Assembly (NCBI RefSeq): GCF_030770395.1 | Contig: NZ_CP132480.1 | Span: forward strand, 2,309,979-2,373,978 | Length of the DNA: 64,000 nt | DNA from: Telluria beijingensis | GTDB taxonomy: Bacteria; Pseudomonadota; Gammaproteobacteria; Burkholderiales; Burkholderiaceae_D | Direction: 5' to 3' | Shown: positions 14,139 to 17,748 of the stretch, piece after piece | Position numbering within the stretch: the first letter of the stretch is position 1 | Layout: each line of letters begins with the position of its first letter | The notes under the pieces: generated by a model | What the model was told of the DNA's origin: nothing | The model's input: the letters and a program-made list of their open reading frames with translations, nothing else | The model's database searches: none | Made by a program: the position numbers and the translations under genes

Positions 14139-15398
14139 TCAGGTCACGGCGCCGCGCTCGGCCGCGACGTCGTAGTCGTTGCGGTCCAGGATGTGCTTCA
14201 GGATCTCGACCGCGTCCCAGACGTCGGCAAAGCTCGTATACAGGGGCGTGAAGCCGAAGCGCATGATCTCGGGTTCGCGGTAGTCGCCGATCACGCCGCG
14301 CGCGATCAGGGCCGCCATCACGGCATAGCCGTGCGGATGGGTGAAGCTGACCTGGCTGCCGCGGCGCGCATGCTCGCGCGGCGTCACCAGCCCCAGCGGA
14401 TGGCCGGCGCAGCGGCTTTCCACCAGCGCGATGAACAGGTCGGTAAGAAGCAGCGACTTGGCGCGCACGGCCGCCATGTCGGTGGCCTCGAACACCTCGA
14501 GACCGCATTCGACCAGCGCCAGCGACACGATCGGCTGGGTGCCGCACAGGGCGCGTCCGATGCCGGCCACCGGCGCGAAGGCGGGCGCCATCGCGAACGG
14601 ACTGGCATGGCCCCACCAGCCCGATAGCGGATGGTCGAACCGGGCCTGGTGCTTCTGCGGCACCCAGATGAAGGCCGGGGCGCCCGGGCCGCCGTTCAGG
14701 TATTTATAGGTGCAGCCGACGGCGAAGTCGGCGCCGGCGCCACGCAGGTCGACCGGGACCGCGCCGGCCGAGTGGGCCAGGTCCCATACGGCCAGGGCGC
14801 CGGCTTCGTGCGCCAGGCGGGTCAGGCCGGCCATATCGTGCTGGTAGCCGGTGCGGTAGTTGACGTGGGTGAGCATCAGCACCGCGCAGTCGGCGTCGAG
14901 CGCGGCCGGGATCTCGTCCACCGAATCGACCAGGCGCACCCGGTAGCCGCGCTCCAGCCAGCGGCTCAGGCCTTCGGCCATATAGATATCGGTCGGGAAG
15001 TTGCTGCGCTCGGTCACGATCACGCGCCGGTCGCTGCCCCCGCCCTGCGCCTGGATGCGCAGCGCGGCGGCCAGCGCCTTGAACAGGTTGAGCGAGGTGG
15101 TATCGGTGACGGCCACTTCACCGGGGCCCGCGCCGACCAGCGGCGCCAGGCGGTCGCCCAGGCGCTTCGGCATGTCGAACCAGCCGGCCGTGTTCCAGCT
15201 CTTGATCAGGTCGGCGCCCCATTCGCGCGCCACCACTTCCTGGGCGCGGGCCAGGGCGGCGCGGGGGCGGGCGCCCAGGGAGTTGCCGTCGAGGTAGATG
15301 ACGCCCTCGGGCAGGTCGAAGCGGCTGCGCAGGCCGGCCAGCGGGTCGTGCGCGTCGCGTGCCAGGCAGTCGGCACGGGTAATGGCGGATGCGGTCAT
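14139..15398 (-). CDS. kynU: Kynureninase
   Basis: A 419-residue PLP enzyme that cleaves L-kynurenine to anthranilate and alanine. It shows the family N-terminus [16 protein letters not shown], the LTHVNYRTG and [14 protein letters not shown] blocks and the PLP lysine in [15 protein letters not shown]. The length is typical. The start at 15398 is the first ATG giving the family N-terminus; the frame is open further upstream through an AT-rich stretch without coding features. It leads the kynU-kynA operon and diverges from the flagellar master operon. Confidence 0.95.
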
Positions 15399-15539
15399 GC
15401 GGTGTCCATATGAATTAGTTGACGCTTCAAGAATGCGTGCAGTGTAACAAGTTCCCGCGCCCGTCGACAGCGCAATGTTGCTGTTACGACATGGAATGTA
15501 AACACAAAAAATATTTTCGAATTTTTTTGCGTCCGACCC

Positions 15540-15566
15540 TAAAGTTCCTGATGAGCTGTCCGATAA
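15540..15566 (+). promoter_or_regulatory. Sigma-28 (FliA) promoter-like site 1
   Basis: TAAAGTTC at 15540-15547, an 11-nt spacer, and TCCGATAA at 15559-15566. The FliA consensus is TAAAGTTT-N11-GCCGATAA, so 14 of 16 positions match with the exact spacing. An A/T-rich block precedes it. Confidence 0.7.
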
Positions 15567-15626
15567 CGATCTCAGATAGGCAGTAATGGGTCTGAAAAAA
15601 AGTTCAAAATTTTTTGCGAACAACCC

Positions 15627-15653
15627 TAAAGTTGCCGATCCGGCTGCCGTTAA
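15627..15653 (+). promoter_or_regulatory. Sigma-28 (FliA) promoter-like site 2
   Basis: TAAAGTTG at 15627-15634, an 11-nt spacer, and GCCGTTAA at 15646-15653; 14 of 16 positions match the FliA consensus. It starts 87 bp after site 1 and has the same ACCC sequence just before the -35. Confidence 0.65.
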
Positions 15654-15703
15654 TGGATGAGCAAGGCGGATAAACAGGGCGAAAAATATTTTCGAACTAA
15701 CCC

Positions 15704-15730
15704 TAAAGTTGCTCTGCAGTGTGCCGATAA
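15704..15730 (+). promoter_or_regulatory. Sigma-28 (FliA) promoter-like site 3
   Basis: TAAAGTTG at 15704-15711, an 11-nt spacer, and a perfect GCCGATAA at 15723-15730; 15 of 16 positions match. It starts 77 bp after site 2 and is the best of the three and the closest to flhD. Confidence 0.72.
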
Positions 15731-16006
15731 ACAACTCAGCGGCATATTGTCGCGTGGCAAAACTACGACAGGCACCGTCTGACGTAGACACAAATCAAGG
15801 CGCTTCCCGGCGCCAGCAACACTCCCTTTTTCATAGGGGCGTCATAGTGATCCAGAAGGGTTTGTCAGACAAACTCCTACGGGTCTATCTCGTCGTTCGC
15901 CGACGCAAAATACAGCGTTCGTCCAATTCCTGAAAAGTTTCCCCACGGTCAGAATCTATCTCGTCGGCAACACAAACAACGCCGAAACAACTAACGGAGA
16001 GAGAAG

Positions 16007-16324
16007 ATGACGATGAACGACATGATGGCTGAGATTCGCGACGCAAACCTGAGCTACCTGATGCTGGCCCAGCAGATGATTCGTGCCGACAAAGTCACCG
16101 CCATCTTCCGCCTGGGCGTCTCGGCCGAGATCGCCGACCTGATCGAAGGCATGAGCAATGCCCAGATCCTGAAGCTCGCCGGCGGCAACATGATGCTGGC
16201 CCGCTTCCGCTTCGACGACAGCGCCATCCTGGGCATGTTGACCAGCCACACCAAGGAACGCAGCCTGGCCCAGTCGCACGCCGCCATCCTGATGGCCGGC
16301 CAGCCGGTCGAAGAGATCGTATAA
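16007..16324 (+). CDS. flhD: Flagellar transcriptional regulator FlhD
   Basis: A 105-residue protein of normal length for FlhD. It has the conserved opening that covers [20 protein letters not shown] and the following [11 protein letters not shown] and [17 protein letters not shown] segments. With FlhC it forms the FlhD4C2 complex that activates class II flagellar promoters. A strong ribosome binding site precedes the ATG. It opens the motility block; three sigma-28-like promoters and a long leader lie upstream. Confidence 0.96.
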
Positions 16325-16376
16325 TCCTGCCAGCGGCCTCGCTGGAAGGCCGACCGGGAGAAGCAGGGAGCAGTAC

Positions 16377-16961
16377 ATGAGCAAAAAAAGCGTGGTATCC
16401 GAAGCGCAGGAAATCCAGCTCGCGATCGAACTGATCAACCTGGGCGCCCGCCTGCAGCTGCTCGAGACCGAAGTCTCGCTGTCGCGCGAACGCTTGCTCA
16501 AGCTGTACAAGGAGCTCAAGGGTGTCTCTCCACCCAAGGGCATGCTCCCGTTCTCCACGGATTGGTTCCTGACCTGGCAACCGAACATCCATTCTTCGTT
16601 GTTCATGAATATCCACCAGTTCCTGGTGGAGCATGCCGGGGCATCCGGCATCCAGGCCGTCATGAAGGCCTATAAACTCTACCTCGAACAAATGCCGCCG
16701 GCGCCGGGCGAAGAACCGCTGCTGTCGCTGACCCGCGCCTGGACCCTGGTGCGCTTCTTCCAGAGCGGCATGCTGCTGCTGGCCCCGTGCAGCCGCTGCC
16801 AGGGCAAGTTCATCGTCAACGCCCTCGACCTCAACGCCGACTACCTGTGCGGCCTGTGCCACATGCCTTCGCGCGCCGGCAAGACCCGCAAGGCCAGGGA
16901 CGCCAAGGAGGCCGCCGAACGCATCGCGGCCGACGGCGACGCCGGCCAGGACAGCGCCTGA
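16377..16961 (+). CDS. flhC: Flagellar transcriptional regulator FlhC
   Basis: A 194-residue protein, the DNA-binding and zinc-binding partner of FlhD. The four zinc ligands are visible as Cys138 and Cys141 (CSRCQGKF) and Cys158 and Cys161 (CGLC). The central [16 protein letters not shown] segment is typical of the family. It follows flhD after 52 bp in the same operon. Its tail is rich in Ala, Lys and Glu, a variable extension in this group. Confidence 0.96.
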
Positions 16962-16962
16962 C

Positions 16963-17748
16963 TTGCGGGCGCGCTTCTCCTTGCGCCTGCCGACGCACTT
17001 GCTGCGCTATCCTGCCCTCCGTGCGCTGCTGATCCAGATCGCCGCTTTTCCGCTGACCCTGGCGATTGTCTTCCTCCTGGCCAGCGCCGGCGTCGTGTTC
17101 GTTTACTGGCACGTGGCGCTGGTGCAGGGCATTGTTGCGGCCTTGCTGTCGTGGTGGCGCGGCCTGGCCAGCTGGTGGCGCGCGATCCAGTTCGGCTTTC
17201 CGCTCGCGCTGCTGGGCGCCAGCCAGCTGGCAATCCCGCCGGCCGCCTTCCTGGCGATCTTCCTGTTCCTGCTATTACTGTACTGGTCGACTTATCGCAC
17301 GCAAGTGCCGTATTACCCGTCCGGCCGCCGGGTGTGGGACGCGGTGGCCGCCGCCTTGCCGCAGAACCGGCCGCTGCGCGTGATCGACATCGGCAGCGGC
17401 ATCGGTGGCCTGGTGCTCGACCTGCAGCGGCGCCGTCCGGACTCGACGATCGAGGGCATCGAACTGGCGCCGCTGCCGTGGCTGGCCAGCCACGCGCGCG
17501 CGCTGCTGGGGCGCAGCCGGGCCCGTTTCATCCGCGGCGACTACGAAAAACTCGACCTGGGCGACTACGACGCCGTGTTCGCCTACCTGTCGCCGGCCGC
17601 GATGGGCGCGCTGTGGCGCAAGGCCGCGCGCGAGATGCGGCCAGGTTCGACGCTTTTCAGTTACGAATTCATCATCGAAGACTGCCCGCCGAGCCGCGTT
17701 ATCCATCCAACCACAGAGGGGCCGTCGCTGTATATGTGGGACTTTTAG
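16963..17748 (+). CDS. Membrane-anchored class I SAM-dependent methyltransferase
   Basis: A 261-residue protein. Residues 20-110 contain three or four strongly hydrophobic segments. From about residue 115 there is a Rossmann methyltransferase domain with the SAM-binding loop VIDIGSGIGGLVLDL and a following acidic residue in EGIELAP. It would act at the inner face of the membrane; the substrate is unknown. A TTG start at 16963 is likely because it comes right after the flhC stop, leaving one base between them, and keeps the first hydrophobic helix. Its place between flhC and motA ties it to motility, but no such role is established. Confidence 0.72.
   Translation: MRARFSLRLPTHLLRYPALRALLIQIAAFPLTLAIVFLLASAGVVFVYWHVALVQGIVAALLSWWRGLASWWRAIQFGFPLALLGASQLAIPPAAFLAIFLFLLLLYWSTYRTQVPYYPSGRRVWDAVAAALPQNRPLRVIDIGSGIGGLVLDLQRRRPDSTIEGIELAPLPWLASHARALLGRSRARFIRGDYEKLDLGDYDAVFAYLSPAAMGALWRKAAREMRPGSTLFSYEFIIEDCPPSRVIHPTTEGPSLYMWDF

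Follow-up and report, generated by a model that had tools for sequence, protein, structure and literature searches.

The flagellar master operon flhDC of the soil bacterium Telluria beijingensis lies downstream of three tandem promoters of the sigma-28 (FliA) type, each following an A/T block that resembles an UP element, and the same promoter design is found before an orphan fliT gene elsewhere in the genome. We read the array as a set of strong FliA promoters with UP-like elements which would feed back positively on flhDC, with fliT as the matched brake, and we put the probability of this reading at roughly two in three. In the textbook flagellar cascade, FlhDC leads to FliA, and FliA normally acts only later. 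The features of the region, given in Table 1 as positions of the window (the whole stretch of 64,000 nucleotides that was analysed), belong to a genome whose closest named FlhC relatives are from Massilia.

Table 1. Promoter, leader and gene features around flhDC in the window
Feature	Position	Strand	Details
kynU (kynureninase), divergent neighbour	14139..15398	-	Pfam KYNU_C, 136.9 bits
UP-element-like A/T block, site 1	15519..15536	+	upstream score 18.8; further A/T block at 15509-15517
Distal sigma-28 (FliA)-type promoter, site 1	15540..15566	+	-35 TAAAGTTC, 11 nt, -10 TCCGATAA; profile score 36.5 bits; predicted start near 15573
UP-element-like A/T block, site 2	15606..15623	+	upstream score 28.8; further A/T block at 15596-15604
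Middle sigma-28-type promoter, site 2	15627..15653	+	-35 TAAAGTTG, 11 nt, -10 GCCGTTAA; profile score 36.5 bits; predicted start near 15660
UP-element-like A/T block, site 3	15683..15700	+	upstream score 14.8; more distal second block missing
Proximal sigma-28-type promoter, site 3	15704..15730	+	-35 TAAAGTTG, 11 nt, -10 GCCGATAA; profile score 32.0 bits; predicted start near 15737
Conserved leader element	15848..15886	+	core GTTTGTCAGACAAAC-N-CCTAC, within a predicted hairpin (3-nt loop)
Conserved AAAATACAG block in the leader	15907..15915	+	from alignments
Conserved CAGAAT	15950..15955	+	from alignments; candidate -10 of a putative proximal sigma-70 promoter
flhD	16007..16324	+	Pfam FlhD, 150.1 bits
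flhC	16377..16961	+	Pfam FlhC, 290.2 bits

The array and its conservation

Each of the three sites matches TAAAGTT(C/G), exactly 11 nt and (T/G)CCG(A/T)TAA without a single mismatch, points to flhD, and is preceded by an A/T-rich block and then CCC, read as GACCC before site 1 and as AACCC before the other two, so that the arrangement first read from this DNA, with ACCC after each block, is present letter for letter. The sites start 87 and 77 nt apart, and about 270-303 nt lie between site 3 and flhD. The pattern TAAAGTT-N13-CCGWTAA has exactly three matches in the single-contig 6.02-Mb genome, all of them before flhD, and the reversed pattern, used as a control, has no exact match in the same genome. 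Shuffles of the window gave a mean of 0.06 and a maximum of 1 match with up to two mismatches, compared with three observed without any. It is by number only the exact matches that stand out, since at up to two mismatches the genome yields 18 matches for the pattern and 28 for its reverse; with CCC added and up to three mismatches allowed, 20 matches were counted and 12 in the control. As a group, the weak genome matches are not above chance.

To follow the array across relatives, flhD upstream regions were gathered from 80 named loci, chosen by FlhC similarity, and from further relatives. For these, 137 FlhD places were found, 110 of which were read besides the window (30 loci and 80 added ones). 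From 191 regions, one locus in which flhD was not found (L115) was left out, giving 190 with flhD, as were 18 upstreams that were duplicates in their last 450 nt, so that 172 non-identical ones remained. In this set, which leans to near relatives and whose fractions are not estimates for the betaproteobacteria, at least one site was detected in 144 of the 172 upstreams and at least two in 123. According to the profile, 28 loci have no copy, 21 have one, 64 two, 53 three and 6 four; the number three stressed in the preliminary description is thus not fixed, as relatives carry 0 to 4 sites. With a gap of 13 and at most one mismatch, the 172 upstreams contain 240 forward matches, compared with 0-1 for the wrong gaps of 9-12 and 14-17 and 5 on the reverse strand, and a promoter profile, built from the same upstream regions that it scored, yielded 332 forward and 4 reverse matches above 10 bits. 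Furthermore, 118 exact matches were counted in 62 genus genomes against 2 for the reversed pattern.

Of the 79 named loci, 66 carry sites, and 55 of these more than one. Every locus titled Telluria, Duganella, Janthinobacterium, Pseudoduganella or Rugamonas has sites, as has every one titled Herminiimonas, Oxalicibacterium, Methylobacillus, Methylophilus or Methylovorus, and sites are present in 4/5 loci each of Undibacterium and Methylotenera, the fifth Methylotenera locus offering only 147 nt of upstream sequence. The alignment across Massilia and Duganella that had been proposed as a check finds the sites kept in every Duganella and in 17/17 Massilia loci. Seven of the eight loci titled Herbaspirillum, one Burkholderia and one Caballeronia locus have flhDC and no array, and the array is therefore not essential to flhDC control. 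The eighth Herbaspirillum locus, strain SJZ107, carries two sites and keeps kynU as in Massilia. Of the 66 named site-bearing loci, 37 have the divergent kynU gene in the available flank (up to 3 kb) and 29 do not; since the array is kept with or without it alongside, the array belongs to flhDC, independent of kynU.

Within the flhD upstream set, adjacent sites are never closer than 68 nt, and their spacing has its mode at 75-78 nt, which is approximately one polymerase footprint, so that the promoters could be occupied together. We rejected helical phasing as an explanation of the spacing: with progressive merging of similar loci, p rose from 0.0002 to 0.05, 0.45 and 0.68 for spacings above 80 nt, and the significance found at every merging level for the 182 spacings of up to 140 nt (p 0 to 0.006) is due to the single mode at 75-78 nt. 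The near-identity of the three units had also been taken to suggest duplication under selection. In 47 three-site loci, units at different positions share an identity of 0.385 within a genome and of 0.371 between genomes outside the promoter elements, and same-position units across genomes are somewhat more alike (0.42-0.48). The dissimilarity of the units argues against recent duplication and speaks for old units held in place by selection.

The promoter design at other flagellar genes

Two FliA-type sigma factors score above the TIGR02479 cut-off, at 285.9 and 220.1 bits. As read from translations, the genome contains two flagellar gene clusters (G000:C1:1330001-1350000, L026, and G000:C1:1820001-1840000, L030), both of which include a FliA-type sigma factor and motor genes of their own. 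The array is more likely served by the FliA whose gene neighbours flhA, flhF and a fleN-like gene. In the scan with CCC added, 11 of the 20 genome matches were read for their downstream gene: three are the array itself, seven weaker ones front fliC (two), fliD, flgK, flgM, the orphan fliT and a small motility-like gene, and one fronts an unknown gene. FlgM and FliT are supported by profiles, and fliC, fliD, flgK and the small motility-like gene were named from translated starts; for the relative of the latter in L259, no NCBIfam model matched. Of the exact copies away from flhD in relatives, 33 were hand-picked from the genus-wide list (three from other family genera) and their genes named from translated starts: 11 precede flgM-like genes, 8 fliT-like genes and 13 the small motility-like gene, and the remaining one has no scoring site. 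That 32 of 33 front flgM, fliT or the small motility-like gene argues that the motif is a FliA promoter. Hence the motif with its strict gap, its orientation, the other flagellar genes that it accompanies and its wide conservation agree with the view of the preliminary description that the tandem sites are sigma-28 promoters, and the same features make its suggestion of FliA feedback on the master operon the best reading.

The two fliC (flagellin) sites, at G000:C1:1377612-1377725 (minus strand), are sigma-28-like, stand in tandem at a distance of 84 nt and have A/T-rich blocks whose register is shifted. At G000:C1:489626-489652 (plus strand), a sigma-28 match with one mismatch lies ahead of a gene whose small and possibly exported product starts with MRNLIALFALSLAGAMANA, a possible FliA target among weak matches that are no commoner than in the control.

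When 311 distinct sites were aligned on TAAAGTT, the column profile displayed AAAAATTTTT 21 to 12 nt upstream, followed by an A-rich stretch, then ACCC directly before the -35, and a second A/T block 31 to 23 nt upstream. We take the sigma-D hag promoter of Bacillus subtilis to be an example of an UP element. The UP-element consensus is AAAWWTWTTTT-N3-AAA, with subsites near -52 and -42 (PMC2412878), and the A/T block fits it at the expected place if the transcription start is put some 7 nt past the -10. Upstream scores, from a profile trained on the same sites, average 18.5 at the sites, and their 99th percentile elsewhere is 7.6. A pattern combining block and -35 was detected in 25/25 genus genomes, with 102 matches against a single control match; 70 of the 102 are located at flhD, including one on the opposite strand (G014). 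Among the 32 others, 28 were examined and comprise 20 at orphan fliT genes, 6 at flagellin (fliC) genes and 2 without assignment, one being cut by a contig end and one lacking a scoring site. The fliT sites have upstream scores of 14.6 to 33.0, the flagellin sites, with their shifted register, -13.6 to 0.1, and the flgM, flgK and small motility-like gene sites below -9. Likewise, 27 of 60 family genomes contain the pattern (50 matches, 0 in the control), 42 of the 50 before flhD; six of the other eight were read, and four of these belong to fliT, one to flagellin and one is unassigned. In the genome scan for further promoters with the block, also put forward in the preliminary description, the matches read from these genus and family genomes lie mainly at flhDC and orphan fliT.

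In T. beijingensis, the orphan FliT-family gene (G000:C1:4158464-4158745, minus strand) is located outside the fliD-fliS-fliT group and has a flhDC-type promoter. Its product is a weak family match, with 32.4 bits for Pfam (cut-off 29.5) and 18.2 for NCBIfam FliT (cut-off 116). In Salmonella, FliT binds to FlhDC and keeps it from activating class 2 (PMC5809477). Because the Salmonella protein inhibits FlhDC and fliT here shares the promoter design of flhDC, by analogy a paired brake on FlhDC is suggested.

From these elements we propose the following circuit. Once hook-basal bodies are finished, FlgM would be exported and FliA set free; free FliA would then transcribe flhDC from the array, and the master regulator would be reinforced as FlhDC protein rises. 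At each promoter, which is predicted to be strong, the UP-like element would serve the alpha subunit of RNA polymerase, and the same design before the orphan fliT would cause an inhibitor of FlhDC to be made at the same time. Since the last site is about 270 nt away from flhD, a separate proximal promoter of flhDC probably exists and may dominate. In Salmonella, the sigma-28 transcript of fliA is poorly translated and gives little FliA (PMC4173784), so transcription from the array need not mean protein.

The leader and competing explanations

Transcripts from the array would carry a leader of about 270 nt with a conserved, covarying hairpin; the long leader raised in the preliminary description is therefore implied by the array itself. 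The conserved element may be an RNA hairpin, a protein operator, or both. Its core is found at the same position in 149 of the 172 upstreams within four mismatches and in 127 within two, and folding predicts an unbroken hairpin of 20 bp in L096 (Methylophilaceae) and of 18 bp in L102 (Methylobacillus). We rejected the element as the operator of a regulon: within three mismatches the core has a single copy in the source genome, which renders a regulator with many targets unlikely, although a dedicated one could act here. As the core persists in lineages without the array, it could still be bound by a protein. In L087, L090 and L091, an inverted repeat of the type AAATA-N12-TATTT, seen by eye, occupies the place of 15907-15930 and is perhaps a second operator.

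Covariation was assessed in 48 dissimilar sequences out of 120 that carry the array and match the core with two mismatches at most. In the proposed stem, 85.7% of pairs are standard, the number of cells with changes on both sides is 117 (44.0 in shuffles), and the covariation score is 0.399 against 0.138 in shuffles and 0.034-0.166 in slid versions, figures that can be inflated by kinship and by the core-based choice of sequences. A misplaced helix used for comparison scored 0.263, with 13 of 500 shuffles as high, and thus gave no clear signal.

These data bear on the strongest competitor of our reading, in which the sites are true sigma-28 promoters and their long transcript is poorly or conditionally translated because the hairpin or other structure of the leader controls flhD translation or the life of the mRNA, so that timing or damping would result in place of plain amplification. 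It is favoured by the covariation of the element and by the lower stem, where G-U pairs number 46 and A-C 11 (54 and 27 when shuffled); however, both are alike in the upper stem (12 and 10). Loci that lack the array have a weaker stem (mean -14.6 kcal/mol in 17, against -20.0 in 132; p=0.0006, kinship uncorrected), yet the core is retained in such loci and may be a protein operator. In addition, in 32 of 41 loci the start region is less accessible than it is when the leader is shuffled; this does not hold for the window (0.44 vs 0.41), where shuffling makes the fold of the whole leader only modestly worse (z -1.93). A block of translation by the leader was rejected, as the lower accessibility with long than with short leaders (0.35 vs 0.59, 130 loci) is expected of a longer RNA, and the effect against shuffled leaders was modest and absent in the window. 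Altogether, we judge control through the leader unlikely.

Negative feedback by interference, whereby polymerases started at the array would pass over a proximal sigma-70 promoter and silence it, seems improbable. The region between array and flhD does hold a conserved candidate for such a promoter, although a sigma-70 consensus scan found nothing and no -35 was recognised for CAGAAT. Read-through polymerase would nonetheless yield flhDC mRNA, no terminator-like site was found on the plus strand between 15380 and 16400, and occlusion needs one strong promoter rather than two to four with UP-like elements.

The preliminary description had also considered that the promoters drive an unannotated small RNA, and sigma-28-dependent small RNAs are indeed known from E. 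coli (PMC10578931). For a trans-acting RNA of this kind, one would look for conserved sequence right after the promoters, yet the 311-site column profile shows little conservation just 3' of them; an Rfam search of 15000-17000 returned no match at E<=1, and the lack of terminator-like sites on the plus strand speaks against it as well, which makes this idea very improbable. Finally, chance matches or an unrelated repeat, for which only the genome count at up to two mismatches (18 vs 28 reversed) could be quoted, are refuted at the sequence level by the exact-match, wrong-gap, reverse-strand and block-pattern controls and by sites in 144 of 172 upstreams, and can be neglected.

Precedents and meaning of the proposed FliA feedback

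Positive feedback of FliA on flhDC would turn the cascade from FlhDC to FliA into a closed loop, which FlgM would couple to completion of the hook. If true, motility in Oxalobacteraceae and Methylophilaceae is predicted to be switch-like or bistable; the matched fliT promoter makes for a clear, testable circuit, and the 0-4 copies across relatives provide a natural dose series. Going further, although we regard this as doubtful, betaproteobacterial FliA might be a second master: promoters combining an UP-like element with sigma-28 elements would form a class common mainly to flhDC and orphan fliT, accelerator and brake would rise together when FlgM leaves, and the hairpin, unique to this leader, would allow separate regulation of the sigma-28 and the basal transcript.

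Control of flhDC by FliA is not without precedent. In enterohaemorrhagic E. coli (EHEC), flhDC is reportedly controlled by QseBC and sigma-28, to go by the title of work by Clarke and Sperandio from 2005, and this would, as far as a title tells, be FliA acting on flhDC as proposed here. Among the matches listed in the literature search, titles and abstract openings mention no FliA promoter array at flhDC in these bacteria. What is new is thus the conserved multi-copy array with its fliT partner, and what is known, by title, is FliA control of flhDC in EHEC. In a mapping of FliA in E. coli, a FliA promoter inside flhC drives motA, and the excerpted text of that source names none before flhD (PMC4183435).

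The hybrid class 2/3 promoter of fliAZ in Salmonella is likewise a sigma-28 promoter feeding back on a regulator, whereas the target here is flhDC, reached via several promoters. With the enteric class-3 (FliA/sigma-28) promoters, the array shares the -35, the -10 and the 11-nt gap, and the motif also fronts fliC, fliD, flgK and flgM; in contrast to them, its best-matching copies here stand in tandem before the class-1 master operon and are combined with an UP-like element. As in the UP element described in PMC2412878, an A-tract followed by a T-tract lies just 5' of the -35, a likeness of sequence. Lastly, the orphan FliT resembles that of Salmonella (PMC5809477) in its Pfam family and in a presumed expression driven by FliA, and differs from it in being an orphan and a weak family match whose gene has the promoter design of flhDC.
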